Made by a program: the position numbers and the translations under genes. From Beroe forskalii (taxonomy: Eukaryota; Ctenophora; Nuda; Beroida; Beroidae), in contig WFMF01000032.1 in assembly GCA_011033025.1 (NCBI GenBank), positions 1 to 64,000 of the forward strand: a stretch of 64,000 nt of DNA, written 5' to 3'. This document shows, one piece after another, positions 18,343 through 63,939 of the stretch. A model generated the notes under the pieces. That model was given only the letters and a program-made list of their open reading frames with translations. It had not been told where the DNA came from and searched no databases. Each line of letters starts with the position of its first letter. Positions within the stretch are counted from its first letter, which is position 1.

Positions 18343-21300
18343 TTCTAAACTCCACCATTCCCCGTGTCTAGGTGATGTCGGGTGTTCTGATCCCCACGCT
18401 GCGTAGTGCTAACCCCACCCTGTCCAGTGAGACTGTGACTCTGTTCTAAACCCCACCATTCCCCTCTCTAGGTGATGTCAGGTGGTCTGATCCCCACACT
18501 ACGTAGTGCTAACCCCACCCTGTCCAGTGAGACTGTGACTCTGTTCTAAACCCCACCATTCCCCGTGTCTAGGTGATGTCAGGTGGTCTGATACCCACCC
18601 TGCGTAGTGCTAACCCCATGTCCAGTGAGACTGTGACTCTGTTCTAAACCCCACCATTCCCCGTGTCTAGGTGATGTCAGGTGGTCTGATACCCACGCTG
18701 CGTAGTGCTAACCCCCCACCCTGTCCAGTGAGACTGTGACTCTGTTCTAAACCCCCACCATTCCCCGTGTCTAGATGATGTCAGGTGGTCTGATCCCCAC
18801 GCTGCGTAGTGCTGTTCTAAACCCCACCATTCCCCGTGTCTAGGTGATGTCAGGTGGTCTGATCCCCCACTACGTAGTGCTAACCCCACCCTGTCCAGTG
18901 AGACTGACTGTTCTAAACTCCACCATTCCCCGTGTCTAGGTGATGTCAGGTGGTCTGATACCCACGTTGCGCAGTGCTAACCCCACTCCTGTCCAGTGAG
19001 ACTGTGACTCTGTTCTAAACCCCACCATTCCCTCAGGTGATGTCAGGTGTTCTGATCCCACGCTGCGTGCTAACCCCACCCTGTCCAGTGAGACTGTGAC
19101 TGTTCTAAACCCCACCATTCCCCGTGTCTAGGTGATGTCAGGTCTGGTGATGCTAACCCCACCCCCTGTGTGAGACTGACCCTTGTTCCCACCTGTCCCC
19201 CACCCTGTCAGTGCCTGTTCCCCCACCATTCCCCGTGTCTGGGTGATGTCAGACTCTGTTCTAAACCCCACCATTCCCCTCTGGTGATGTCAGGTGGTCT
19301 ACGTGGTGCTAACCCCACCCTGTCCAGTGAGACTGTGACTCTGTTCTAAACCCACCATTCCCCTGTCTAGATGTCCTGATACCCACGCTGCGTAGTGCTA
19401 ACCCCACCCTGTCCAGTGAGACTGTGACTCTGTTCTAAACCCCACATTCCCCTCTCTAGGTGATGTCGGGTGGTCTGATACCCACGCTGCGTAGTGCTAA
19501 CCCCACCCTGTCCAGTGAGACTGTGACTCTGTTCTAAACCCCACCATTCCCCGTGTCTAGGTGATGTCAGGTGGTCTGATCCCCACGCTGCGTAGTGCTA
19601 ACCCCACCCTGTCCAGTGAGACTGTGACTCTGTTCTAAACCCCACCATTCCCCGTATCTAGGAGATGTCGGGTAGTCTGATACCCACGCTGCGTAGTGCT
19701 AACCCCAACCACCATTCCCGTGTCTAGGTGATGTCGGGTGGTCTGATACCCACGTTCGTGAACCTAACCCCACCCTGTCCCTGTGACTCTGTTCTAAACC
19801 CTGTCTAGGTGATGTCGGGTATCTGATACCCACGCTGCGTAGTGCTAACCCCACCCTGTCCAGTGAGACTGTGACTCTGTTCTAAACCCCACCATTCCCC
19901 GTGTCTAGGTGATGTCTGGTGGTCTGATATCCACACTCCGTAGCTCTAATCCCACCCTGCCCAGTGAGACTGTGACTCTGTTCTAAACCCCACCATTCCC
20001 CGTGTCTAGGTGATGTCAGGTGGTCTGATACCCACGTTGCGCAGTGCTAACCCCACTCTGTCCAGTGACACTGTGACTCTGTTCTAAACCCCACATTCCC
20101 CGTGTCTAGGTGATGTCAGGTGGTCTGATACCCACGCTGCCAGTGAGACTGTGTCTGTTCTAAACCCCACCATTCCCCGTGCTAACCCCACCTGTCCAGT
20201 GAGACTGTGACTCTGTTCTAAACCCCACATTCCCCGTGTCTAGGTGATGTCAGGTGGTCTGATACCCACGTGCTAACCCCACCCTGTCCGAGTGAGACTG
20301 TGACTCTGTTCTAAACCCCACCATTCCCGTCCAGTGAAACTGTGACTCTGTTCTAAACCCCACCATTCCCCGTGTCTAGGTGATGTCAGGTGGTCTGATC
20401 CCCACACTACGTAGTGCTAACCCCACCCTGTCCAGTGAGACTGTGACTCTGTTCTAAACCCCACCATTCCCCTCTCTAGGTGATGTCAGGTGGTCTGATA
20501 CCCACGCTGCGTAGTGCTAACCCCACCCTGTCCAGTGAGACTGTGACCCTGTTCTAAACCCCACCATTCCCCTCTCTAGGTGATGTCAGGTGGTCTGATA
20601 CCCACGCTGCGTAGTGCTAACCCCACCCTGTCCAGTGAGACTGTGACTCTGTTCTAAACCCCACCATTCCCCGTGTCTAGGTGATGTCAGGTGGTCTGAT
20701 ACCCACGCTGCGTAGTGCTAACCCCACCCTGTCCAGTGAGACTGTGACTCTGTTCTAAACCCCACCATTCCCCGTGTCTAGGTGATGTCAGGTGGTCTGA
20801 TACCCACGCTGCGTAGTGCTAACCCCACCCTGTCCAGTGAGACTGTGACCCTGTTCTAAACCCCACTATTCCCCGTGTCTAGGTGATGTCAGGTGGTCTG
20901 ATACCCACGCTGCGTAGTGCTAACCCCACCCTGTCCAGTGAGACTGTGACCCTGTTCTAAACCCCACTATTCCCCGTGTCTAGGTGATGTCAGGTGGTCT
21001 GATCCCCACACTCCGTAGCTCTAATCCCACCCTGCCCAGTGAGACTGTGACTCTGTTCTAAACGCCACCATTCCCCGTGTCTAGGTGATGTCAGGTGGTC
21101 TGATACCCACGCTGCGTAGTGCTAACCCCACCCTGTCCAGTGAGACTGTGACTCTGTTCTAAACCCCACATTCCCCGTGTCTAGGAGATGTCAGGTGGTC
21201 TGATACCCACGCTGCGTAGTGCTAACCCCACCCTGTCCAGTGAGACTGTGACTCTGTTCTAAACCCCACCATTCCCCGTGTCTAGGTGATGTCAGGTGGT

Positions 21301-21588
21301 CTGATCCCCACGTTACGCAGTGCTAACCCCACCCTGTCCAGTGAGACTGTGACTCTGTTCTAAACCCCACCATTCCCCGTGTCTAGGTGATGTCAGGTGG
21401 TCTGATACCCACGCTGCGTAGTGCTAACCCCACCCTGTCCAGTGAGACTGTGACTCTGTTCTAAACCCCACCATTCCCCGTGTCTAGGTGATGTCAGGTG
21501 GTCTGATACCCACGCTGCGTAGTGCTAACCCCACCCTGTCCAGTGAGACTGTGACCCTGTTCTAAACCCCACCATTCCCCCTCTCTAG
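18343..21588. repeat. 101-bp tandem array carrying acceptor plus exon start of nicotinamidase
   Basis: About 32 copies of a 101-bp unit, many nearly identical; spacing of 101 is exact between 20681, 20782, 20883 and 20984. Copies near 19130-19330, 19700-19830 and 20140-20340 are truncated or rearranged. Each intact unit starts GTGATGTCAGGTGG and ends CCCCGTGTCTAG, so each is bounded GT...AG. About the first 74 bp match the start of the nicotinamidase exon at 21589; the last 27 bp match the polypyrimidine/acceptor before it. Each unit has an ATG followed by 24 codons (MSGGLIPTLRS...TVTLF) and a TAA. Only the last copy reads on into the gene. Confidence 0.93.
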
Positions 21589-21591
21589 GTG

Positions 21592-23524
21592 ATGTCAGGT
21601 GGTCTGATACCCACGTTGCGCAGTGCTAACCCCACTCTGTCCAGTGACACTGTGACTCTGTGTTTTGAGGATGTCTGTGGCTGCTCCACCACCGACAACA
21701 AGACCACCTCGATGTTCGCTGAGGTGGGCAAGGTGGAGGGCGTGTTGAGGAACTTGGGCGTGGTGGTGGAGGGGAGTGTGTTGGAGGCGTGCCAAGTTGG
21801 GGACCTGCTCTACACGCCAGCTCTTGTTTCTTTGTTACAGGTCAGTTGGAGACTACAGGGTTTGCACTGTCTGTTAAAAATGGTTATTGATCGTGCTTTT
21901 GTTGTTTTTACTGTCCAATAAAACTTAACATTATCTTTAAGTTACACATATCATAAACAGGCAGGAGTTGCTGATGCCGGTAAGAGGGTGTTTGCTCTTA
22001 TTATTGTGGATGTTCAGAACGACTTCATATCAGGAAGCCTTGCTGTCAACGAAGGTAGGTCAGTCTGTGATCACAAAATCACATATAATATGACACACGC
22101 ATTCTATTATTCAATACCTAATTCAGTGTCTATTTGTCTCATATGCACTCGTAATTCGTATACCTTTTTAATTTGTGAGAAAACTCAATGGAGGGATAAC
22201 AAAATGGTCCCAACACTTCACAGTTTCATGCTCTTCCCTCCCCCCTTCCTTCCTCCCCAGGAGCAATGGTAGTCCCCGTTATCAACACCCTCCTGCCCCA
22301 CTTTACCCACGTGTACAAGACGGCTGACTGGCACCCAGCCAACCACATCTCCTTCCACCCCAACGTAGCAAGTGGTCTGTACCCCACCTCTCCCCGGTCT
22401 AAGATCGAGGGTAAGGGTGCTAAGATGTTCGAGACGGTGGTGGTCCAAGGGCCTCCGGAGCTGAATCAGACGCTGTGGCCGATACATTGCGTGCAGGGGA
22501 GTGAGGGGGCTAAGTTTCATAAACAGCTGAAGGAAGTTAACAATGAGACGAGGATTGATAAGGGTAGGACTAATCAGATTTCTGTTCAAGTTTAGAAGTT
22601 TCGTTAGTTCCCCCAACTTTTGTCTGAAGTGTCATTTTCCTTAGAGTTACATGCACCATTCAGCTATTTTCAACTCATATCTACCAGCCCTACGTTTAAG
22701 TTAATACCCCTGAACCCCCAGGTATGAACCCCTAAACCCTCAGGAGTCAGGTTGCATGTATTAACCCCTGAACCCCCAGGTATGAAACCCTGAACACCCA
22801 GGTATGAACCCCTGAACCCTCAGGTATGAACCCCTTTACCCCCAGGTATGAACCCCCAAGTGGACAGCTACAGCGCGTTCTGGGATAACGGAGACACTTC
22901 CCACACGCCTCTCTACTCGCTGCTGGTAAAACAGGGCGTTACTGACGTGGTGGTGTGTGGTTTGGCTACTGATTACTGTGTCGGATTCACTGCTCTGGAT
23001 GCAGCCAGACACGGCTTTAGGACGCTCTTAGTGGAGGACGCTATTAGAGGTGAGATAACAGTCGGATACTGTTATCATATCTTACGATCCGATACCTTCA
23101 GCCGACACTGCAACACCTGGCAATCGATACCAGCGTCTTGCATTATTCTCAATCTGGTGATATCGCCGCTTAACTTGCTTTGCTGACATACTCAAAACCT
23201 CAAAAGATCTCTCACCAGTTCCTTCATTATTCTGTTGAAATAGTCAAATATAGGCTGCCACCCATACAAATGTCAAATTAAACCACTGAATACAACTTAT
23301 TTACGACCCTTACTGATCATTGCTCTTCAGGTGTAGCTGAAGCGACGATTAAACCAATGTTGGCACGATGCCAAGCAGCTGGAGTTGAGTTCGTCTCCTC
23401 CAAAGACATTCCTGGCATTGTCAAATCAGGAGGAGAGACTGAACCTGCCAAGTTGAGTAATGAAACAGAGGCCCGGATACTGAGAGTAATGAAGTACTTC
23501 TCAGCTAACAACAGAACTCAGTGA
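21592..23524 (+). CDS. PNC1: Nicotinamidase (isochorismatase-fold amidohydrolase)
   Basis: Five exons in phase give about 347 aa: 21592-21840, 21961-22054, 22261-22563, 22846-23049, 23331-23524. The enzyme hydrolyses nicotinamide to nicotinate and ammonia for NAD salvage. Visible family features are the catalytic Asp in VDVQNDF, metal ligands in TADWHP and the His of PIHC, the expected Lys in IDKG next to VDSYSAFWDN, and the catalytic Cys in LATDYCVGFTALDAARHGF. All are intact. The N-terminal 83 residues (exon 1) precede the catalytic domain; animal nicotinamidases often carry an EF-hand-like N-terminal domain, but here only a weakly similar helix pair (EVGKVEGVLRNLG) is seen. The first exon follows an acceptor-like TCTAG, so a 5' UTR exon may lie upstream of or within the array. 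AATAAA motifs occur near 24061. Confidence 0.93.
22690..22855 (+). repeat. 22-bp repeats duplicating the intron 3 acceptor of nicotinamidase
   Basis: About six imperfect copies of cccctgaacccccaggtatg (+aa). Most carry CAG|GTATGAA. The last copy contains the real splice acceptor at 22845/22846 and the first bases of exon 4 (GTATGAACCCCC, coding G-M-N-P). Confidence 0.88.
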
Positions 23525-40500: not shown

Positions 40501-43500
40501 GTAATTTAGTCCTGTAACAATTACTAGAATTACTAGAATTACTAGAATTACCAGAATTACTAGAATTACCATATAATAAGTTGCACTCGCTAGGGCGAAC
40601 GCTGTTATTATGGATCGGCATTCGGCTGTGTTGTGTTTCCCAGCTTCTCCTGTTCAACCTCGTTAATTTCTAGTACCAAATTGTTAATATACTGAGCATT
40701 TAATGTGTTGGCAAGATCACATTATTAAGTCTCACTTTGTCAGGTTCTGTTACAAGTGTTCGAGAACAGCTAGACAAGTTTATCAGCGACGCCGTTTCCT
40801 CGGATGTCCATGTTATGATGTGCGAACTCCTTGACAGCTTTACGCTGATACTGCCCCTCTGTACTGCAGACATTCAGCGCGACTGTGAGTAACTGCAACT
40901 TTTATGCTCCGTAGCTGTATGAATTACGATTTATAATTCTGGCACTCACAGTTTAACTCAACCTTACTCTCACTCTTTCAAAAATCATCCCTTTTTGAGA
41001 TCATTGTGTCTTACCACTTTTCTATGAAAGCACAGAGCTTTGCGCCTTTGAACAGCAAACCTCATTACCTCCCATATAAGGAATAATGTGCCGTGCTTTT
41101 GATTCAATTATCTCGTGACCTCCCTCATGTAATGTGATTGTTGTGTTATAAAGCAGCCACGTGTCCTATCACAAGGGCTATTATATACTGCTGCTAATTC
41201 AGCTGCTGACAGTAATACTGCTCTCATATTTCAAGCACAGGGAAATATCATCACAGCTTGAATATACGCACTGAGCACTCTTCATCTTCAGTTTTAAACT
41301 TTACAACACTACTTTATACAATCAAATTTGAGGTAAGATTCCGTTCCATGTGTATCTGAGTCTCTTCGGAGCTCAGACTCACATCTTTTGGTTTGTCTTC
41401 CACTAGGAGGACTATGACAATCAATGACAGAAAAGGTTAAATACCGAGCCCGAAATTTTGCATTTTTCAAGTTTGCTCCGCAGAGCATAGTCGGTTCCTT
41501 TTATACTTTCTTGACATCACTTTATCTTGGCACAGGCCCGTAATTCCTGGGGGGGGGGGACTAGTCCCACTCAGTCACACGGGAAAAAGCATATTTCAGC
41601 CTTATTTTTGGTCCTTGTGGACAATTATAACCAAAAAGTCAATTTTGAGGCCAAAATTGGGTTTTGAGAGGCTGTAAATCGTGAAAATGGCCGAAATTCA
41701 AAATTCTGAAAGCAGCATTTTCTTAGTTGGATCAAACTGTACTGACCTGCAAAATTTCATGAGTTAACTAGTAAGTTTACTAGGACGACCCCCCCCCCGA
41801 GATACTGATCAAAATTCAGAAAATACTCTGACACCATTGGACTTGTGGAAGACTCTGTTTGTAAATACATCATTATTTGGTTCTAGTACACTCTCTGGAA
41901 GGCAGTCATACGGGAAAAAAGCATATTTCAGCCTTATATTTGGTCCTTGTGGACAATTATAACCAAAAAAGTCAATTTTGAGGCCAAAAATTGGGTTTTT
42001 GAGAGGCTGTAAATCGTGAAAATGGCCGAAATTCAAAATTCTGAAAGCAGCATTTTCTTAGTTGGATCAAACTGTACTGACCTGCAAAATTTCATGAGTT
42101 AACTAGTAAGTTTACTAGGATGACCCCCCCCCCGAGATACTGATCAAAATTCAGAAAATACTCTGACACCATTGGACTTGTGGAAGACTCTGTTTGTAAA
42201 TGCATCATTATTTGGTTCTAGTACACTCTCTGGAAGGCAGTCACACGGGAAAAAGCATATTTCAGCCTTATTTTTGGTCCTTGTGGACAATTATAACCAA
42301 AAAAGTCAATTTTGAGGCCAAAAATTGGGTTTTTGAGAGGCTGTAAATCGTGAAAATGGCCGAAATTCAAAATTCTGAAAGCAGCATTTTCTTAGTTGGA
42401 TCAAACTGTACTGACCTGCAAAATTTCATGAGTTAACTAGTAAGTTTACTAGGAGGACCCCCCCCCCCGAGATACTGATCAAAATTCAGAAAATACTCTG
42501 ACACCATTGGACTTGTGGAAGACTCTGTTTGTAAATGCATCATTATTTGGTTCTAGTACACTCTCTGGAAGGCAGTCACACGGGAAAAAGCATATTTCAG
42601 CCTTATTTTTGGTCCTTGTGGACAATTATAACCAAAAAAGTCAATTTTGAGGCCAAAATTGGGTTTTGAGAGGCTGTAAATCGTGAAAATGGCCGAAATT
42701 CAAAATTCTGAAAGCAGCATTTTCTTAGTTGGATCAAACTGTACTGACCTGCAAAATTTCATGAGTTAACTAGTAAGTTTACTAGGACGACCCCCCCCCC
42801 GAGATACTGATCAAAATTCAGAAAATACTCTGACACCATTGGACTTGTGGAAGACTCTGTTTGTAAATGCATCATTATTTGGTTCTAGTACACTCTCTGG
42901 AAGGCAGTCACACGGGAAAAAAGCATATTCCAGCCTTGTATTTGGTCCTTGTGGACAATTATAACCAAAGAAGTCCATTTTGAGGCCAAAAATTGGGTTT
43001 TTGAGAGGCTGTAAATCGTGAAAATGGCCGAAATTCAAAATTCTGAAAGCAGCATTTTCTTAGTTGGATCAAACTGTACTGACCTGCAAAATTTCATGAG
43101 TTAACTATCAAGTTTACTAGGACGACCCCCCCCCCCTCGAGATACTGATCAAAATTCAGAAAATACTCTGACACCATTGGACTTGTGGAAGACTCTGTTT
43201 GTAAATGCATCATTATTTGGTTCTAGTACACTCTCTGGAAGGCAGTCACACGGGAAAAAGCATATTTCAGTCTTATATTTGGTCCTTGTGGACAATTATA
43301 ACCAAAAAAAGTCAATTTTGAGGCCAAAAATTGGGTTTTTGAGAGGCTGTAAATCGTGAAAATGGCCGAAATTCAAAATTCTGAAAGCAGCATTTTCTTA
43401 GTTGGATCAAACTGTACTGACCTGCAAAATTTCATGAGTTAACTAGTAAGTTTACTAGGACGACCCCCCCCCCCTCGAGATACTGATCAAAATTCAGAAA

Positions 43501-45620
43501 ATACTCTGACACCATTGGACTTGTGGAAGACTCTGTTTGTAAATGCATCATTATTTGGTTCTAGTACACTCTCTGGAAGGCAGTCACACGGGAAAAAGCA
43601 TATTTCAGTCTTATATTTGGTCCTTGTGGACAATTATAACCAAAGATGTCCATTTTGAGGCCAAAAATTGGGTTTTTGAGAGGCTGTAAATCGTGAAAAT
43701 GGCCGAAATTCAAAATTCTGAAAGCAGCATTTTCTTAGTTGGATCAAACTGTACTGACCTGCAAAATTTCATGAGTTAACTAGTAAGTTTACTAGGAGGA
43801 CCCCCCCCCCGAGATACTGATCAAAATTCAGAAAATACTCTGACACCATTGGACTTGTGGAAGACTCTGTTTGTAAATGCATCATTATTTGGTTCTAGTA
43901 CACTCTCTGGAAGGCAGTCACACGGGAAAAAGCATATTTCAGCCTTATTTTTGGTCCTTGTGGCCAATTATAACCAAAGAAGTCCATTTTAGGCCAAATC
44001 ATATTATGTTAGTTCAAGGGTAATGACACGAGAAATATCCCCAAATTGCACTCTCCCAAATTTTTAAACACCAAAATTTTACTCCACATAATAACACCTC
44101 CTAAGTCCTAAGGTTATCTATCTTAACAATAGAATTCGTGTTTCAGTTTTGATTCCGAGGCTTGCCACGATCGGAGTGAGTAACAGCGCGATTAGCAACA
44201 AAACCAAACGGAGAGATATTACGGAGCGACTGATTAGTGCCTACAAAGCTATTCTCAGCAGCTGTATCCTCTTGATTTGTTACGTCGGAACTTAATTCCG
44301 ACAAACTGCAATATCTTTATTGTCATTTCATTTTTACTTCTTTTGTTCTAGAACTACTTGTACTAATGCAAATACTATCCATGCCATGTTGCGATAAACA
44401 CGCCTCTTGTTGTAATAATTTCCAGTATCCACAATATCCGATATGAAAATAATGGATATCTCCATTTAAAGTCATAAAATCGACAGACAGAATTTCAGAC
44501 GGACAATAAAAAATCATGTCCTGATTGGCGTACCTTCATTGGTTGTGCCTACTATAACACCTTCAGACATCTGAAAGTTGTAAGATCTTCCAAAGGCTCA
44601 CATTACGTGAGGGTGAAGATGAAATATTACGTCGATCATTACATGGCCTTTTGTCCAAGTCTTTTATCCGCCTATCGAGATTCCTGACATTTACCCCATA
44701 TGTTACAATCCTTAACTCTTTGGTAGACCTTACAGCAGATACGATAGAGCATTACATCCTGCCTGGTCTACAGGCTCTGTCAGTGGATGCTCAGGTAAGC
44801 AATTAGTTTCTTCGAACTGTACGATCAAATCAGTTACCGTACAGGGTTCGTTCTGTACCTTCTTGTTTGAATGTTGCGATATACCTACTCCTCTTCATTT
44901 TGTTTTGGTTTGTTTTTATACACCAAAGGTAAAACTCAGATGAGAGTTAGACCGAACCGAGCGACCAGTGCCTGGGGACACGGGAAGAGCAAGGTCCAGA
45001 CTCGAATAAGAGCTAGACCGAACCTATCACCACAACCCAAATAATATACTCAAATATAAGCTCATTATAATATAAAGATAATAGAATTACAGTGTTATTA
45101 AAGTGTAATTTCGAATGCTCAGGAGGTTATCCCTGAGAAACAGCAGGTGGTCGACCTCATGTTCCGGGAAGTAGCTGCCAAGACTCAGCTGTGAGTGTTT
45201 TCACTTATCTAAACTTCATTCAAATGTTCATCTTTGATAAATGTCATTTTACATTCATCTTATTTATGCTATATCCATAAATTATTATACAATTGATATT
45301 GATTATTAGGAGTTTAGGGGATAATATTTGACCTACAAAACACAGTTCGAAGCTGCAGTGATTCAGTCTCTGTGTTTTGAACTCATGTCCCTCTGTGTTT
45401 TCTGAGAAATTCACTAAATGGCTACCCCCATCTCACTAAATGACCCTCACCCCTTTCACTACCCCTCATCTTCTGCCCCTCATCTCTCACTACCCTCTCC
45501 ACTCCCCCCTCATCTCACTACTCCTTCTCCAGGTCACTACCCCTCTCCAGGTCGCAAAGAGACAACAAATCGACCAATGTCTTCGGATCCAAAATGAGTG
45601 GATTCTTCAAGAAGAAATAA
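25523..45620 (+). CDS. RELCH: RELCH: LisH, coiled-coil and HEAT-repeat protein
   Basis: Twenty exons in phase, about 1162 aa (human about 1216): 25523-25679, 26396-26563, 26903-27028, 29796-29917, 30454-30543, 30682-30803, 31020-31110, 31397-31784, 31896-32254, 32450-32562, 32850-32940, 38330-38401, 39084-39221, 39370-40227, 40358-40496, 40744-40884, 44147-44263, 44736-44794, 45123-45190, 45551-45620. Family signatures are the N-terminal ALELYYELLEH, QTFDSLDLVSRYSDDD, VLEFELRKAQETI, the LisH motif KRCLNFLIAEYLLENNYKLS followed by EDWEDVGLN, then HEAT-region RCLPHIMPHVLLNKRE, LLPQCWEQ and ERRLLVAETCG. In vertebrates RELCH binds RAB11 and OSBP and tethers recycling endosomes to the trans-Golgi for cholesterol transfer. 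The start is ATG in good context (caccATGG). Exon 5 is the least certain, and exon 18 has two in-frame acceptors three bases apart. AATAAA lies near 45836. Two genes sit antisense in introns 3 and 11. Confidence 0.95.
26997..27255 (+). repeat. 42-bp repeats duplicating the end of RELCH exon 3 with its splice donor
   Basis: The 3' end of exon 3 (gtaccttctagaaaac...ctctcag) is followed by about five tandem copies of a 42-bp unit, gtactaatag + gtacctgctagaaaac + ...ctctcag, starting at 27029, 27071, 27113, 27155 and 27198. Each begins GTAC and ends CTCTCAG. Forty-two is a multiple of three and the frame stays open through the first three or four units, so using a later donor would add 14-residue blocks (YLLENNYKLSGTNR) inside the LisH region. 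The last two units are 43 bp and break the frame. Confidence 0.9.
27374..29153 (-). CDS. DSL-domain transmembrane protein (Notch-ligand-like), nested antisense in RELCH intron 3
   Basis: Exons on the minus strand: 28734-about 28487, about 28480-28232 and 28080-27374 (stop at 27374). The product has an MNNL-like N-terminal region (SSQFRGTASVEF...NLWGANVT, RFLLYLEPNATA...), then CDRGFHGIGC, a full DSL-type module (CEEHYYSEVCRYC...YTCD...CDPGWAGADC) and a partial second one (CETGYYGGLC). Next come three 16-residue Pro/Lys/Gln-rich repeats (DPTKPSDNARQEEKHQ), a TM helix (VVSLLAIAVGLGIVLSVGLI) and a cytoplasmic tail of about 75 aa. Expected role: a cell-surface ligand or antagonist in Notch-type signalling. 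Unusually, there are no EGF repeats. The first exon is uncertain: a 33-nt exon at 29121-29153 (MILLLLYSYIM, phase 0) would supply a short signal sequence; the ORF starting at 29463 is the alternative. A one-base frame change near 28485 separates the two MNNL halves. Confidence 0.72.
29700..29807 (+). repeat. About 37-bp repeats duplicating the RELCH exon 4 acceptor
   Basis: Three imperfect units of acttattgcagg(c/t)ata followed by cacttgtta or, in the last, cgcttgcgg. The last contains the real acceptor TTGCAG|GTATAACGCTTG at 29795/29796. The first two carry the same acceptor core and a diverged copy of the exon start (GCATACCACTTG). The donor end of the same intron is repeated too. Confidence 0.85.
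29918..30453 (+). other. RELCH intron 4, no other feature
   Basis: AT-rich intronic DNA with an A/C-rich low-complexity patch at about 30175-30240. No coding evidence. Confidence 0.5.
33120..35029 (-). CDS. Rhodopsin-like GPCR, orphan, nested antisense in RELCH intron 11
   Basis: Three exons with consistent phases encode about 489 aa: 35029-34960, 34760-34336, 34094-33120. The extracellular N-terminus has an N-glycosylation site (NGT). Seven hydrophobic helices are visible: TM1 with GTPGNSLAL, TM2 with LVCLVDALICL (the conserved Asp), TM3 preceded by Cys (ALCTLW), TM4 GLYTAICIAHSLLPL, TM5 DLPVAVMIVSSVVAV, TM6 ILATVYVLLNAPFCIYY and TM7 ending PLNAAADMVILY. The DRY position reads VTR (Arg kept, acidic residue lost), and NPxxY is replaced by a longer N...Y spacing. 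The C-terminal tail is about 140 aa, Ser/Thr-rich. It is a class A-like plasma-membrane receptor; ligand unknown. The N-terminal exon (MQLENGTTSQWPFEGT...) is supported by phase, a good donor (GCAG|GTAATG) and the acceptor TCCTTCAG. Confidence 0.9.
35030..38329 (+). other. Remainder of RELCH intron 11 (upstream of the GPCR)
   Basis: Three kilobases of AT-rich sequence without a supported exon on either strand. It presumably contains the promoter of the antisense GPCR. A small tandem duplication (gtttcttcacacct, twice) is near 38217-38245, and cagatttct is doubled at the acceptor before 38330. Confidence 0.45.
40517..40575 (+). repeat. 12-bp minisatellite in RELCH intron 15
   Basis: About five copies of attactagaatt with occasional attaccagaatt variants, just inside the intron after the 40497 donor. 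Confidence 0.85.
41550..44000 (+). repeat. 334-bp satellite array in RELCH intron 16
   Basis: Seven full units and one partial copy of a repeat of 332-338 bp; the landmark acgggaaaaagcatattt recurs at about 41578, 41910, 42244, 42579, 42912, 43249, 43587 and 43920. Units are nearly identical. Each contains a run of 9-12 C followed by gagatactgatcaaaattc. Length differences come mainly from the C-run and from A-runs after ataacc. ORFs on either strand (for example about 75 codons at 41809-42036 and 42811-43038) are repeats of each other and read through the monomer. No transposon ends are visible. Confidence 0.93.
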
Positions 45621-48115: not shown

Positions 48116-50556
48116 TTATATCTGAGTGGCAATAGGGACATTGTCCGGCCTCATCACTGTGTAAGGTAGGGTCTCACACTCCTCATTCCTTTCTACGATG
48201 GCATTCTTCAACTCCTCCATCTGCTTTTCCATCTTCTTTATGCACATTTGCTGGTCATGAGAAACCGACATGTTGCCCCCGAGATATTCCATCCTCTCGC
48301 CTGACTCGGATGGGATGTAGAATCTATCTATTGGGGAAAAGTTTCCCAGTACCTCCGTTAGAGCCGTGGTGACAAGTGCGATCTCGTATTTCGGGAGATA
48401 TTTTATGATTTGATGCTCAAGCTCATCCTGATTCAATATTTTTCCCGCAACTTCGGGTATTTGATCGTCCTGCTTTGGTGGGCCTTTGATCATACTGGGT
48501 GGCGCATTGAGTATGTAGGCCAGATATTTGTTGATTTGGAAGTTTACACTGGCATGGAAGGTTGAGGAATTGAAAATAATCACCGTCAAATACTCAGACA
48601 ACTTTTCTTTAGTAGCGATGGAGGTTGGGAAGCCTGCCCCTTTGTTGTCACGAAATCCTCCGAAGCCTTTATCGGCTATTTCTCTAGCGAACTCCTGCAA
48701 CTCAAGGTCATCAGAGACATCCTTATCACTCTTGTACGATATATCCACCATCCCTGTAGCGTATCTGTGTAGGATGTTCCACGTGGAGATTGAATCATCC
48801 CTGTACAGGTACTTTAATTTTACTTTCTCGGTATCCATGACTCCTTTCGTTTCAAACCACTTTGGCATGTTTAAGGTGTCGTATGTCAGGTTTTCGCAGA
48901 CGTTTTCCAGCAACGTATCTAAATGATCGCCTGCAGACATAAACTTAGCGAATGCATTGTTGTTTGGGTTGATTAGCACTTTTCTTGCCTGCACATTGAT
49001 CGCAATGATGCCTTGAAGATGCGGCCAGAGCAGTCTGAAGAGTGGGTGTTGAAAGGGAGATTCCGGTACATGGACACTGCGAACACTTCATTCATTGCAT
49101 GGCCTCTTGCATAGTGAGTTCCTATTGCGTATATCTGCCAGTCAGCGCATCTGAAAAACATCTTAGCTAGGAGCCAGAAGTAGTGATTTCGTCGTTGTTC
49201 TCTCTCGTCGTTGTCTCTCTCGTGATTCTGTCGTTGTTCTGTGTCGTCTTTGGCATCCGGCGGGTACCAGAAAGTTTGCGGCTCATTGCCGTTTTTATAT
49301 TCCAGACGTATCAGAATCGGGACAAAGGACTCGTCCTTAGGACGTTTCTTGCTCTGAAAAAGCAGACAGTCAGCTTGAACTACGTACCACGTTTCCGGAT
49401 CTCTGAGCAATAGTTCGCTGGCGGCTCCCCCGTTTGCAACCCCTTCCAGTTCTTTAGAATTCAAAATCTCGAACAGTCTTCCTTCTTCCAGCACTTCTCC
49501 AAGATCTTCTCCGTCTATAGCATATGATTTCAGAAAACCCATCTCTATTGCTTCTTTCCATGGCTCAGAAATTTCGTTCACTGACTTCGCTCTAAGTTTT
49601 CTCAAATTTACAGAATTAGGGCCCTCAAGGATCTGTCTTCCGAATTCGTGGTCTTTTTGGAAATGTTGTCCCACCCAAAGACCGTCGCTTATATCATCGA
49701 CTTTCCACGCACTCTTTTCTGTCATTTTAACAAACGCCTCCTGGTAGTCGTGGAAGTTTCTCCACTCATGCCTTTGATCATAACGCCCTAGGCTCATTAA
49801 GCTGCAAATATAACCCTTAATTACAGAGGTAACTATCTCACATCCAGCCCTCTTGATGTCAAAAGAAAATGCATCCATTTTGGCAAGTCTAAATTGGAGG
49901 AACCTCGGAAGCTTATCGTATGATTTCTCAGCAATGTAGCCACAACCGTGATTTGGGACCACATTATTTTCCCAATTCACCACAGAACGAACCATTTTTT
50001 TGGATTGATTTCTCGCGTTCAGTATAGCGGGATCTTGATCCTGGTCCTTGAGGGTCCCAGCCCCTGGGATGGTATAGAGATATGGCAGACAACCATTCTG
50101 AAGGATGTCATTTCTGTTTTTAAAAAGCGATTTGTGCGGGCTTAGGAAGTTTTGTATGGGAAATTTGTAAGTTCTGTGTTGCCATTGTATTGCAACTTCT
50201 CGAATGAAAAGAGGGTGCTTTTTGAAGCAATTCCTTTCAATTTCTATTTTAAGCAGCTTTGGTTCTCCTGATACGTTTCTCGGCTCATCTCGGACTGAAT
50301 TGTCTTTCGGCTTAGAATCCCAGAAAACCAGATCAGTGAACCCCATCTTGTGGGTGTTGAAGGCTTTATTTATTCGCAGAACGTGGGTTGAAAAGCCCGC
50401 CATCCCGTCAGGGTTGATGGTTATCTTCACAGTGCCTTCTCGCCACTTTTTTATCTTGTCAGCTTGTGGCAAATTACACCCAGTGTTCAAATAGACGTGA
50501 TAGATTTCGGAAGAAGACGTTATCGGACCAAATGAATTCTTCGAATTGTAATTCAT
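48116..50556 (-). CDS. PLAT-domain lipoxygenase with one frameshift
   Basis: Two overlapping minus-strand frames (50556-48973 and about 49055-48116) together make one protein of about 820 aa, with no intron in the coding part. An N-terminal PLAT/LH2 domain (about residues 18-138; YHVYLNT...REVAIQW...YKFPIQNFL) precedes the catalytic domain. Iron ligands look complete: H481 and H486 in THYARGHAMNEV, the distal His and Asn in FHASVNFQ (about 48535-48555) and a C-terminal Ile (...VPIATQI). The first His of the extended motif is Tyr (Y476). Expected activity: dioxygenation of polyunsaturated fatty acids. The reading frame breaks at the AAAGGG tract near 49052-49057, between MYRNLP and HPLFRLLWPHL, one base short. 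An Arg/Asn/Glu/His-rich repetitive insert (QRQNHERDNDEREQRRNH) sits just before the iron helix. TTTTTCCTCTTAG immediately precedes GAAACCATG, so a 5' UTR intron is likely. Confidence 0.92.
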
Positions 50557-50668
50557 GGTTTCCTAAGAGGAAAAAAGGATATAAATTTAAAAAGGATGTA
50601 AATTTGCTTAGTTGAATATTTTGAAAGTAAAGATACTGATAGAACTAGAAAAGAGGCTTTTTAGGTAA

Positions 50669-58643: not shown

Positions 58644-61600
58644 ATGGTATCTAAAGCGAAGAAGAGCCATAAGAAAGGTGGTGTCATGGTTCAGCATCAC
58701 GGTGCAAACGATACAGCCCACGCCTCCCCTCACCACTTGACAGTTTCCAAAGCCTGGTGTGTTTCCAAACACCATAATGAGCAGCTGTAAAACACGTGCT
58801 GCCAATATCAATTCATGCGATCATGCACAATAAATTTAATGGTATTGACCACTTTGATAACTCATATTGATAGGTAGATTATCTTGAAATTGTTCGAGGG
58901 ATGCGATAATTTTGACTAGATGAATCAAACTAACAATAGTAAAGCTGACCGTCCTCATCTTCAGCTCGGAAGTGAGTAACGTTGGTACCAATGTGATAGA
59001 CGAGAGTCTCCTGCATGAATTCCTGGAGGAAGATGGGGTAGACGTGTCCACTGCCAAGTTCCTCCATGTGAGTCTGTACCTTCACCTGTACCAAAGAATA
59101 CTGATGGCCCATCAGTAAGCTTTTTTATTGATATTTTATTTGATATTGTTGTAAAAAGTGGTATTTCCTCGGCACTCGATACATTTCGTCAAAATGGAAA
59201 TTCAATTCTCAAGCAAAAGACTTGCTCTCTTGCCGGTACGGGCCTTGCCATTGTCCTCTGCATTATCTAATGCTACGAATTCCCTCAGGGTCTGAGCAAG
59301 AGTGGTCTGAGACCTCTGTCAGATCCCAGATTCAAGATTACAATAGATAAGATTAAAGCCATTTCTACTGACTTTGATAGCATTCCAGAGACCATTGCGA
59401 TGGAGGACTTCAAAAAGTGAGTCCTTCAGAATTTGGAAAATGTATTGATGAGGTCTTCACATTTGAGTGATTGATCTTGAGAAGGAACTATAACTCTTCT
59501 CACTCGTCAAAACTAAGCCATAGAAGTCCTATAGAATAGCTAGATTTTCGAATCGAGGAACTTCCCGAAGTCGTATTTGTTTAATTTCAGGTGTCTCTCA
59601 TCTAACATGGTGTTCATAACCCAAGCCTTGTGCGGCAACCTGGTCATACCGAAGTGGTCTGTCTTCTCCAACATCATCAAGGAGATATTTGAGGAATGCA
59701 GAGGTCTCAAAGAAGGAAAGGTACCACGACTACCAAACATCAATTATTATAAGTTATGATGCGAGGCACAGGCTTTGTTAGTGACTTGCAAATTAAGGAA
59801 GGTTTACGTTCTACTTTATGCCACCAATTCTTATAATTTACTTCCAATGTATCATTACATTTCACCCGTCAGGTTGCCGATCTGACGCCCCAAATGGCAA
59901 AGATTGACCCGGAGCGGTATGCTGTGTCGATCTGCTCCATTGACGGGCAGAGGTTTTCTCTGGGGGACTCGAAGAGTGCCTTCCCCATCCAGGACTTCAA
60001 CAGAGTCCTGCTCTACGCCCTAACGTGCACAGACAAATCAGTCGACTACGTGCATCAGTGAGTGTGGTACTGATCAAGGAATGAAATAAAAACATCAGAT
60101 GAAATAAAAACATCAGATTTCCAGACGATCTTATATTGCAATTTCTTATATTCTACAAAACAGTTTAAACCACCACAGTCCACACTATCTCTACCAGGTA
60201 TATTGGCAAAGAACCGAGTGGTTCTGAAGGAGAGGCTCTGATGCTGAAGAACAAGAAACCCCACAACCCGCTCCAGTTGACTGGGGGACTAACCCTTGCT
60301 TCCCTCCTCAAACCAGACCTCTGCTTCTCCGAGAGATTCGAGTTCTTCCTCAAGAAATGCGTTCAGTTAGTACTCGTTATGTTTTGTTTTTCTGATCAAT
60401 GTACTTTTAATATAGGTTTTAGGCTCAATCAAACGATTTTTATTTACTTTTTCAAATGTTATATAGGCTGGGTTGACTAAACGAAGTTCATCCAAGCATT
60501 GATGTTAAGCTTGGATAAGTTCTTCCTCAATTTACCCTTTCTCAGAAACTTGACTTTATTCTGCCCCATCGCAGGTTTTGTGGGAATGAACCAGTGGGAT
60601 TCAACAACTCTCTAGCCCTTTCTCTGCAGGATCATTCCAACAGACTCTATGCTATTGGGCATTTCTTGCGGGAAAACGGATGCTTCAACAAAGATAGCAA
60701 GGTATTAGGCATTACTCAACCTATATGTTTATCTTTGTAATTTATGTAGTTCTTCTTGTACATTTTAGTAGATTTGATAAATTACGTGGGCCCCATTTCG
60801 TGGGACATATTTTCTCTTTGATTTCCTGCTGCTACTCACCTCAAGAACCGGGATTCCAGATTTAAGAAATCCCCACAGAATCACATCCCTTCTCACCCTC
60901 CTTCTCTTCCAATACCAATTGCCTAACCTCCCTCCCTTGCAGGTGGATTCCCTGGATCAGATAATGGAGCTGTTCATCCACTACAGTGCCATTGAGATGT
61001 CGTGTGACGCTGCCTCTGTCATGGCAGCCACTCTGGCTTCAGGAGGTCTGTGTCCCCTGACAGGAGAGAAGGTGGTGTTCCCCGAGGCTGTCAGGAACTG
61101 TCTCAGCATGATGAACTGCTGCGGCGTCAACGACCACAGTGGCGAGTTCATGTTCGAGGTTTGTTGGGTGGTGCGAGCTGAAACTTTCAGTGAAATTGAA
61201 ATCAGATACTAAATTTTCAATGCCCTCCATCTCTGAACGGAGTGAGATGTGTGCACATTTCCTCTCATTTTTCTACTTTTTATAGTTCAAATCAAATGAT
61301 ATAAACCCCCCCCTCCCCTAGGTGGGACTGCCCGCCAAGTCTAACGTATCGGGGGGTCTGATAGTCGTGATCCCCAACGTGCTCGGAATGTGCATCTACT
61401 CCCCTCGTGTGGACGGAAGCAAGAACTCCGTGAGGGGCGTGGCACTCTGCAAGAAGTTCACGGAGAGATTCGTCTTCCATCAGTTCGATCCGTCCGATAG
61501 GTCCAACAACAAGATAGACCCGAGGAGGAAGGATTTCACTGAAACCAAGGTTTGTTGGTGTTCACATGCAATCCCTGCCACAGTCAACTGTGACAAGTAG

Positions 61601-63939
61601 CAATCAATTTATGAATGTTCAATCTCGTGTCTTCTTGTAACTTCTGTCGTATGGAATAAGAGCTGCCAATTTGCCCTTCTTTCGCAGGGTGCCATTCTTT
61701 GCCCTCATTTTTGCCATGCTTCGCAGGGCACGCCCTGCTTTTGCGAGGCAATTCCAAAAGGGTACCTAAATTTAACGACTTTGGAGCAAAAAGTGATTTG
61801 AATAGGCAAAAACAGCATTAATTCAAAAAGGTGCATTAGTTTTATCACACCTGCAAAATTTAGGTTTTTCAAAAGTAGATGGAAACTTTTACTTACCGAA
61901 AATCATGCCCTGCATCGAGATTAAGATTTGGCAGCTCTCAATTCTGATTCAGATACCAATTTTCCAACTCCAGTGATCCCTCCTTTACCATCCCAATCCC
62001 TCATTTACCATCTCAATCCCTCCTTTACCATCCCAATCCCTCATTAACCATCCCAATCCCTCCTTTACCATCCCAATCCCTCCTTCACTATCCCGATCCC
62101 TCCTTTACCTTCCCAATCCCAATCCCTCATTTACCATCCCAATCCCTCCTTTCCTACCCTCCCGTCCCTCCCAATCCCTCCTTTACCATCCCAATCCCTC
62201 TTTACCATCCCAAACCCTCATTTACCATCCCAATCCCTCCTTTCCTACCCTCCCGTCCCTCCCAATCCCTCCTTTACCATCCCAATCCCTCTTTACCATC
62301 CCAAACCCTCATTTACCATCCCAATCCCTCCTTTACCATCCCAATCCCTCATTTACCATCCCAATCCCTCCTTTACCATCCCAATCCCTCTTTACCATCC
62401 CAATCCCTCATTTACCATCCCAATCCCTCCTTTCCTACCCTCCCGTCCCTCCCAATCCCTCATTTACCATCCCAATCCCTCTTTACCATCCCAAACCCTC
62501 ATTTACCATCCCAATCCCTCCTTTACCATCCCAATCCCTCATTTACCATCCCAATCCCTCCTTTACCATCCCAATCCCTCCTTTACCATCCCAATCCCTC
62601 CTTTACCATCCCAATCCCTCCTTCACCATCCCAATCCTCCTTCACCATCCCAATCCCTTCTTCACTATCCCAATCCCTCCTTTACCATCCCAATCCCTCT
62701 TTACCATCCCAAACCCTCATTTACCATCCCAATCCCTCCTTTACCATCCCAATCCCTCATTTACCATCCCAATCCCTCATTTACCATCCCAATCCCTCCT
62801 TTACCATCCCAATCCCTCCTTTACCATCCCAATCCCTCCTTTACCATCCCAATCCCTCCTTCACCATCCCAATCCCTCCTTCACCATCCCAATCCCTTCT
62901 TCACTATCCCAATCCCTCCTTTACCATCCCAATCCCTCTTTACCATCCCAAACCCTCATTTACCATCCCAATCCCTCCTTTACCATCCCAATCCCTCCTT
63001 TACCATCCCAATCCCTCCTTTACCATCTCAATACCTCCTTTACCATTCCAATCCCTCCTTCACCATTCCAATCCCTCCTTCACCATTCCAATCCCTCCTT
63101 TACCATCCCAATCCCTCCTTTACCATCCCAATCCCTCCTTTACCATCCCAATCCCTCCTTTACCATCCCAATCCCTCCTTTACCATCTCAATACCTCCTT
63201 TACCATTCCAATCCCTCCTTTACCATCCCAATCCCTCCTTCACCATCCCAATCCCTCCTTTACCATTCCAATCCCCCAGGATCAGCAGAGTCTGATTCTG
63301 CTGTTTGCAGCGTACCAGGGGAACATGACGACTCTGTACCGGTACCTCAAGGAGGGCGTGAACTTCGGGTATCCTGACTACGACGGGAGAACGGCTCTAC
63401 ATCTCGCTGTGTGCGGGGGTCAGTAGTTTTAGTACTTTACTGTTTGGCGTAAAAAGGTGTAATTACCCCTACTAACAACAACTCATTGCTTCTTCTGATT
63501 GATGGATACTTAAGTCAGCAGTTTTAGGGACTGATTCACGCCAAGCCGCATCAGTTCTTCCATCATCTTTTATCTGTGTCATCTCTCCCAACTTAACTCA
63601 ACCTCATCGACTCTTCAGCCCTGACTTCCTCTTCCGGTTCCACCAAACCCTCTCCTGCCCTAAAAATCCGCCCTGCTGACTCCCCTCCCCTCTCAAACGA
63701 TATCCCTCATCTTGTTCATAGTCGCCGAGCTAACTTACTAAAGTTCTAACACCCTGTCCCCTGCAGGCCAGTTCGAGGTGGTAAAGTTCCTGGTTGACAA
63801 GTGCAACGTGGACGTGAACCCTGTCGACCGGTGGGAGAACACTCCGCTAGACGACGGAGTGAAGTACGGACAAGACCAGATCATCCTGTACCTACAGAGG
63901 AAGAAGGCACTCAGAGGGGCGGAGGTTATGAACGGTTAA
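58644..63939 (+). CDS. GLS: Glutaminase homologue with ankyrin repeats and a substituted active site (predicted pseudoenzyme)
   Basis: Eleven exons in phase encode 579 aa: 58644-58786, 58965-59067, 59289-59416, 59591-59720, 59873-60057, 60198-60365, 60575-60701, 60943-61158, 61322-61549, 63280-63418, 63767-63939. The whole kidney-type GLS order is present: an N-terminal helical EF-hand-like domain ([20 protein letters not shown]), the beta-lactamase-like glutaminase domain ([35 protein letters not shown]) and ankyrin repeats ([21 protein letters not shown]). Glutaminase normally hydrolyses glutamine to glutamate in mitochondria. Aligned to human GLS, Ser286 and Lys289 are D209 and R212, Tyr249 is L172, Asn335 L257, Glu381 L303, Asn388 L310, Tyr414 F339 and Tyr466 N391; only Val484 (V409) remains. 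The frame is open and splice sites are intact, so it is not a decayed pseudogene. Exon 1 (Lys/His-rich, ATG in ccggccATGG) is the least certain. A role as a regulator or scaffold is inference. Confidence 0.93.
61968..63275 (+). repeat. 20-bp pyrimidine-rich satellite ending at a splice acceptor
   Basis: About 64 copies of tttaccatcccaatccctcc and variants (ctcat, cttcacc, cttctt, ctttcc) fill most of intron 9 of the glutaminase homologue. Higher-order blocks recur, such as tttcctaccctcccgtccc plus following units near 62150, 62240 and 62430. The last unit supplies the polypyrimidine tract of the acceptor (ccattccaatcccccag|GATCAG at 63279/63280). Confidence 0.95.
63419..63766 (+). other. Last intron of the glutaminase homologue
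   Basis: A 348-bp intron, donor G|GTCAGT and acceptor CCCCTGCAG. Nothing else is recognised. Confidence 0.6.

Follow-up and report, generated by a model that had tools for sequence, protein, structure and literature searches.

A putative pseudoenzyme of the glutaminase family in the ctenophore Beroe forskalii

Ctenophores are thought to use glutamate as a main transmitter. Most animals have one glutaminase, and eight have been reported in Pleurobrachia and nine in Mnemiopsis (Moroz and Kohn 2016, PMC4685580), an expansion possibly tied to diversified glutamate signalling and to bioenergetic demand. In the human enzymes, catalysis is coupled both to filament formation and to the closing movement of activation loop and lid, the filaments require bound substrate, and the ankyrin repeats have been proposed to restrain GLS2 (PMC10912226). 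(Statements credited to papers by PMC number refer to excerpts of those papers.) Here we describe a glutaminase-like gene, called the pseudo-glutaminase below, in the first 64,000 nucleotides of Beroe forskalii contig WFMF01000032.1 (assembly GCA_011033025.1); this whole stretch is the window (C381:1-64000). Like the genes reported by Moroz and Kohn it belongs to a multi-gene ctenophore glutaminase set, but the excerpt of that paper describes the members as enzymes and does not mention catalytic loss, whereas the pseudo-glutaminase lacks catalytic residues. PDX1.2, a pseudoenzyme of plant vitamin B6 synthase, is a non-catalytic relative that regulates its own pathway (PMC6829848), as the pseudo-glutaminase may do, although its protein family is unrelated to glutaminase. 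No description of a pseudoenzyme of the GLS family was found in the literature searched, which consisted of openly licensed texts judged mostly by title and the start of the abstract.

An intact gene with a largely replaced active site

Manual reconstruction from the forward reading frames, all three of which were used, gives the pseudo-glutaminase gene 11 exons and a coding sequence of 1710 nucleotides including the stop codon, encoding 569 amino acids. All ten introns are bounded by GT..AG, and the coding sequence has no internal stops. A purpose-written splice-aware aligner given only human KGA and the DNA returned identical sites from the exon 2 donor through the exon 11 acceptor, the sole mismatch in that span being an exon 10 start nine bases later. 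The aligner did not recover exon 1 with this query, and exon 1 is without homologue support; its start context, GGCCATGG, is strong, and an in-frame stop lies 12 nucleotides 5' of the ATG. The complete, in-phase gene of 11 exons proposed in the initial annotation is thus borne out. With ten introns and an open frame, the gene has neither the disabled frame nor the processed, intron-free form of a pseudogene.

The protein is a clear member of the glutaminase family. Residues 157-445 match the whole of the Pfam Glutaminase profile PF04960 (positions 1-286 of 286) with 270.1 bits against a curated cut-off of 27, and the best phmmer match in the PDB is human kidney glutaminase (5uqe_A, E 1.2e-128, 433.8 bits, query 53-557), with liver glutaminase (8t0z_A) also matched at 418.4 bits. 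Pfam matches to EF-hand_14 (42 bits, residues 53-135) and to C-terminal ankyrin families including Ank_2 (473-556) complete the architecture of kidney-type animal GLS, in the same domain order as human GLS (KGA; PDB 8gwr, 5uqe). Identity to human KGA is 41% (207 of 499 aligned positions), rising to 45% in the catalytic domain (128/285). These ankyrin matches and the family sequence motifs in common with human KGA agree with the earlier claim that fold-defining motifs and ankyrin repeats are kept; a further claim, of high similarity outside the active site, is reasonable for the best-conserved columns (46/61, see below) and less so for the domain as a whole. The protein differs from human KGA in lacking Ser286, Lys289 and six more substrate residues, in a rewritten activation loop, and in its N-terminus, which is lysine-rich with no obvious arginine-rich mitochondrial leader when judged by eye.

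We mapped the nine active-site residues listed in the initial annotation on chain B of 8gwr, which carries full human numbering. Both members of the catalytic Ser286-Lys289 dyad are replaced (S286 by D199, K289 by R202), as are the substrate positions Y249 (L162), N335 (L247), E381 (L293), N388 (L300), Y414 (F329) and Y466 (N381). V484, present as V399, is the only one of the seven substrate residues retained, and the neighbour of the catalytic serine, Q285, is also retained, as Q198. The replacement of eight of the nine and the firmness of the alignment were therefore correctly called; the pairing of residues was right, and all eight residue numbers had been too high by 10 (D199, for example, had been given as D209). 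Leucine stands at four of the eight replaced positions; given how common leucine is in this protein, the chance of that is about 0.004, by a test conceived after the data were seen. Ser286, Lys289, Tyr249 and Glu381 are supported as active-site residues in PMC10912226; docking in PMC13204110 names Gln285, Glu381, Asn388, Tyr414 and Lys289, and simulation there adds Tyr249 and Asn335. The terms Tyr466 and Val484 are absent from the excerpt of PMC13204110, and Tyr466 so spelled is absent from that of PMC10912226, where the mutant Y466W occurs. From the residues replaced, we consider it very probable that the protein is catalytically inactive toward glutamine.

We compared 53 other glutaminases (48 bacterial, two human and three from the same genome), using columns filled in at least 40 sequences and ungapped in the pseudo-glutaminase; the GLS2 row, from 8t0z, has A at position 320 that may be the mutant K253A, and this cell was not treated as wild type. 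Among comparison sequences with a residue at the dyad positions, S286 is serine in 50 of 50 and K289 is lysine in 51 of 51. N335 is likewise invariant (52/52), as are E381, N388 and Y466 (53/53 each), and Y414 (52/53), Y249 (45/50) and V484 (52/53) are nearly so. In columns conserved at 90% or more, the pseudo-glutaminase keeps one of nine active-site residues versus 46 of 61 others (Fisher P 0.0004). The corresponding figures are 1/8 versus 33/47 at 95% or more (0.003), 1/8 versus 30/42 at 98% or more (0.003), and 0/6 versus 23/29 in fully conserved columns (0.0006). Scored in the same way against the rest at the 90% level, the C814 and C358 glutaminases of this genome (described below) each keep 66 of 70 columns, C225 keeps 47 of 48 and human KGA 66 of 69.

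The protein has also loosened beyond the nine positions, with 15 of the 61 other columns lost at the 90% level. Fourteen are lost at 95%; ten of them are no more than four residues away from an active-site position on the list (250, 253, 338, 339, 411, 415, 418, 462, 465 and 483), a clustering noted by inspection. The remainder are 318 and 319 in the activation loop and 301 and 509 elsewhere. Taken together, the column counts support a loss specific to the active site. The alignment, the conservation test and the canonical residues of C814 place the protein among pseudoenzymes, in that homology, loss of catalytic residues and a paralogue with an intact active site are all found.

Glutaminase relatives in the Beroe genome

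The assembly has 216,145,372 bases in 1134 contigs. Genome searches with PF04960, the C814 protein and the window protein converged on five contigs, C381, C814, C225, C358 and C296; only the best candidates were scored and more divergent members may be missed, so that this number is best read as at least five. Four of the contigs carry glutaminase genes, and C296 carries a fragment. The second, canonical GLS that the initial annotation had suggested looking for is found at C814:422500-432400. All nine active-site residues are present there, and the gene model is clear in the catalytic and ankyrin parts, with the outermost exons unclear. The C814 protein aligns with the pseudo-glutaminase throughout the glutaminase and ankyrin parts (43% identity in the catalytic and 49% in the ankyrin part), but the two genes differ at the active site and have no intron positions in common (10 introns versus 14, the outer C814 exons being uncertain). 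On C358 all nine residues are present in the alignment of an incomplete gene model.

The sequence at C225:924200-925320 is canonical from K289 onward and intron-free there, with one frame break; the exon that would hold S286 was not found within the 5 kb fetched upstream. This copy is 5'-truncated and, in a stretch of 197 residues, shares 75% identity with the C814 protein. It may be a retrocopy, a decaying gene or an assembly error.

C296:181144-183067 holds only exons 9-11 of the pseudo-glutaminase. One side of this 1.9-kb segment is flanked by a 346-bp satellite. The match is bounded at window positions 61311 and 64335. A simple second allele is disfavoured by these match ends and the flanking satellite, and we call it a partial copy, although it may be an allele with rearranged flanks. 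Since the published B. ovata assembly has only 91.6 Mb (PMC11184263), haplotypes may have stayed uncollapsed in the present 216 Mb. Exons 1-8, at the 5' end of the pseudo-glutaminase, occur once in the assembly, with no second copy found.

In phylogenetic trees the pseudo-glutaminase has a long branch, of length 0.94, or 0.85 when the active-site columns are removed, and 0.90 in a further tree. C814 and C225 are sisters with support of 100. In the best trees the neighbour of the pseudo-glutaminase is C358, whether the short bacterial enzymes are included or left out (supports 79-93). A grouping of the pseudo-glutaminase with C814 and C225 survives the AU test (0.18), and the long branches make the placement unsafe. 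The pseudo-glutaminase is an old or fast-evolving paralogue and not a retrocopy; origin as a retrocopy of C814 is ruled out by the ten introns. We also considered a horizontal or lineage origin and set it aside; identity to bacterial sequences is at most 40% and not above that to C814 (42%) or human KGA (41%). A search of viral contigs gave 48 pattern matches, with no relative among them. Bacteroidota and some other bacteria have glutaminases that align with the animal ankyrin part, filling 80 to 93 of the 93 ankyrin columns.

Probable retention of the gene and its possible role

The partial copy on C296 allowed a comparison of substitutions in exons 9-11. Across 540 nucleotides including the stop codon, the window and C296 differ at five synonymous and no nonsynonymous sites. 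The region has 122.8 synonymous sites against 414.2 nonsynonymous ones, which gives five synonymous changes out of five a chance of 0.0006, or 0.0016 at a transition weight of 3. This pattern is evidence that the C-terminal third of the predicted protein is under purifying selection. In the noncoding parts the two copies diverge by 1.2, 2.9 and 3.5%, with gaps in addition. Third-position GC content (GC3) in the gene is 66% versus 39% GC in the introns (intron 9 excluded), comparable to C814 (61% and 37%, clear exons only). When we simulated neutral drift to 95, 90, 80 and 65% identity, the frame remained free of stops in 6, 4, 1 and 0 of 40 runs. Beyond exons 9-11 retention is probable on indirect evidence, namely the intact frame, the conserved columns kept, the GC3 contrast and this simulation. 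The protein probably retains a function of some kind. The earlier proposal of a retained pseudoenzyme draws support from the specific active-site loss, the intact frame and splice sites, the canonical paralogues and the synonymous-only differences in exons 9-11.

We favour, with moderate confidence, a retained pseudoenzyme acting through protein assembly. The former pocket, filled with hydrophobic side chains, would neither bind nor hydrolyse glutamine, and the protein would still fold and assemble as a glutaminase does. It could then enter the tetramers or filaments of canonical glutaminase as a non-catalytic subunit, whether partner, cap or decoy, and interact through its ankyrin repeats. 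This specific role, co-assembly with an active glutaminase, we put forward tentatively. Three of the seven filament contacts named in PMC10912226 (F355, F373 and N375) are kept as in the human enzyme. Two others lie within family variation, the replacement of Q379 by leucine being common to C814 and C358 and that of D412 by glutamate common to C358 and 25 of the 48 bacterial sequences. Because the lid tyrosine, the activation-loop phenylalanine and the catalytic pair are lost, we infer that the protein is unable to run the human cycle of filament and loop. A charge swap of R317/E325 to E/K, seen in a pairwise alignment, was dropped as a candidate feature, since the human pair is missing from C814 too and E325 falls in a gap of the MAFFT alignment.

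Several observations weigh against action through glutaminase assemblies. The selection test is limited to residues 391-569, which hold one of the nine active-site residues, and that one is kept. The remaining two filament contacts, F378A and Q416H, are unlike all five animal sequences compared, and the activation loop no longer has F318; at R317, K320 and E325 the protein departs from the human residues, as does C814 (G, Q and K). Self-made filaments by the human route are unlikely, because human filaments require bound substrate. With no obvious leader seen by eye, the pseudo-glutaminase might not meet a mitochondrial glutaminase. Co-evolution with C814 as a partner is not supported, because no introns are common to the two genes and the best trees do not unite them.

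Some of the same evidence would suit an independent scaffold or sensor, a homo-oligomer with a role unrelated to canonical glutaminase that acts through its ankyrin repeats or through a rebuilt pocket binding another ligand. The long branch (0.85-0.94) outside the C814/C225 pair in the best trees, the lack of common introns, the rewritten activation loop and the lack of an obvious leader by eye all fit such a protein. Five of the seven filament-contact positions are nonetheless within family variation and nothing direct indicates another ligand, and we regard this explanation as rather unlikely. A gene in early decay, its active site lost first and with no present function, would agree with the fast evolution and with the partial C296 copy beside satellite DNA, by which pieces of the locus are seen to duplicate. 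The absence of stops and frameshifts, the intact splice sites, the lack of nonsynonymous changes among the five in exons 9-11, the 46 of 61 conserved columns kept outside the active site and the rarity of stop-free frames in the neutral simulation make decay improbable. A new enzyme activity, in which D199, R202 and the altered pocket catalyse a reaction other than glutamine hydrolysis, might be read from the acidic and basic residues at the former serine and lysine positions and from the conserved columns kept elsewhere, yet leucine at four of the six remaining replacements leaves few polar groups for catalysis and the replacement set is seen in none of the 53 compared sequences, so that we consider it a little more improbable still. 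An assembly or sequencing artefact, to which the single occurrence of exons 1-8 in a single assembly might point, is barely credible when eight separate codons are altered within an open 11-exon frame and a second contig confirms exons 9-11.

If the pseudo-glutaminase is judged rightly from its sequence, at least one member of the ctenophore glutaminase family looks non-enzymatic, which suggests that a metabolic enzyme has been converted to a non-catalytic protein in ctenophores, a group noted for its many glutamate genes. A fuller version of co-assembly, a dedicated ctenophore non-catalytic glutaminase subunit that has a leucine-plugged pocket, joins or caps active filaments and sets glutamate supply, is speculative and in our view doubtful. 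If such a subunit exists, part of the reported ctenophore glutaminase expansion would be regulatory and not enzymatic. Should some members be without catalysis, counting genes would exaggerate the signalling and bioenergetic capacity read from the expansion, and a natural inactive subunit would allow a direct test of the need for active sites in glutaminase filaments.

Features of the window and incidental observations

Features of the pseudo-glutaminase locus, in window positions
Feature	Position	Strand	Details and basis
Pseudo-glutaminase gene	58644..63939	+	Stop codon 63937-63939; hand model, homology, Pfam, splice-aware alignment
Exon 1	58644..58756	+	N-terminus, strong start context; hand model, no homologue for this exon
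Exon 2	58965..59067	+	EF-hand-like domain begins; hand model, Pfam
Exon 3	59289..59416	+	EF-hand-like domain; hand model, Pfam, splice-aware alignment
Exon 4	59591..59720	+	Hand model, splice-aware alignment
Exon 5	59873..60057	+	L162 (human Y249), D199 (S286), R202 (K289); human alignment
Exon 6	60198..60365	+	Altered activation loop, L247 (N335); human alignment
Exon 7	60575..60701	+	L293 (E381), L300 (N388); human alignment
Exon 8	60943..61158	+	F329 (Y414), N381 (Y466); human alignment
Exon 9	61322..61549	+	V399 (V484, kept), glutaminase domain ends; human alignment, C296 copy
20-bp minisatellite	61976..63275	+	66 copies, occupies most of intron 9; repeat scan
Exon 10	63280..63418	+	Ankyrin repeats; Pfam, C296 copy
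Exon 11	63767..63939	+	Ankyrin repeats, C-terminus, stop; Pfam, C296 copy

On C296 the partial copy of the gene has about 10 units of the intron 9 minisatellite. Other repeats in the window are a 335-bp satellite array of 7.3 copies at 41572-43998 and, at 18343-21661, arrays that repeat a unit of roughly 100 bp up to 13 times each.

Seven neighbouring pieces of the window, each of at most 200 amino acids, were compared with Pfam and four had matches. On the reverse strand at 48119-50562 are two long overlapping open frames, the downstream one with a Lipoxygenase domain (91 bits) in its first 200 amino acids and the upstream one with no match in its first 200. A 90% identical copy of this stretch is on C469. 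An exon of the Isochorismatase family (50 bits) lies on the forward strand at 22830-23183.

Mitogenomes of Beroe forskalii have been described with a mean GC content of 17.3%, genetic code 4, no atp6, atp8 or tRNAs, and, following ND5, a large frame of unknown nature (PMC6991124). The COX1-bearing mitochondrial contig of this assembly has 17.5% GC and in-frame TGA in COX1; ARAGORN gave no tRNA on it, and a long unnamed frame follows the putative ND5 (by eye).

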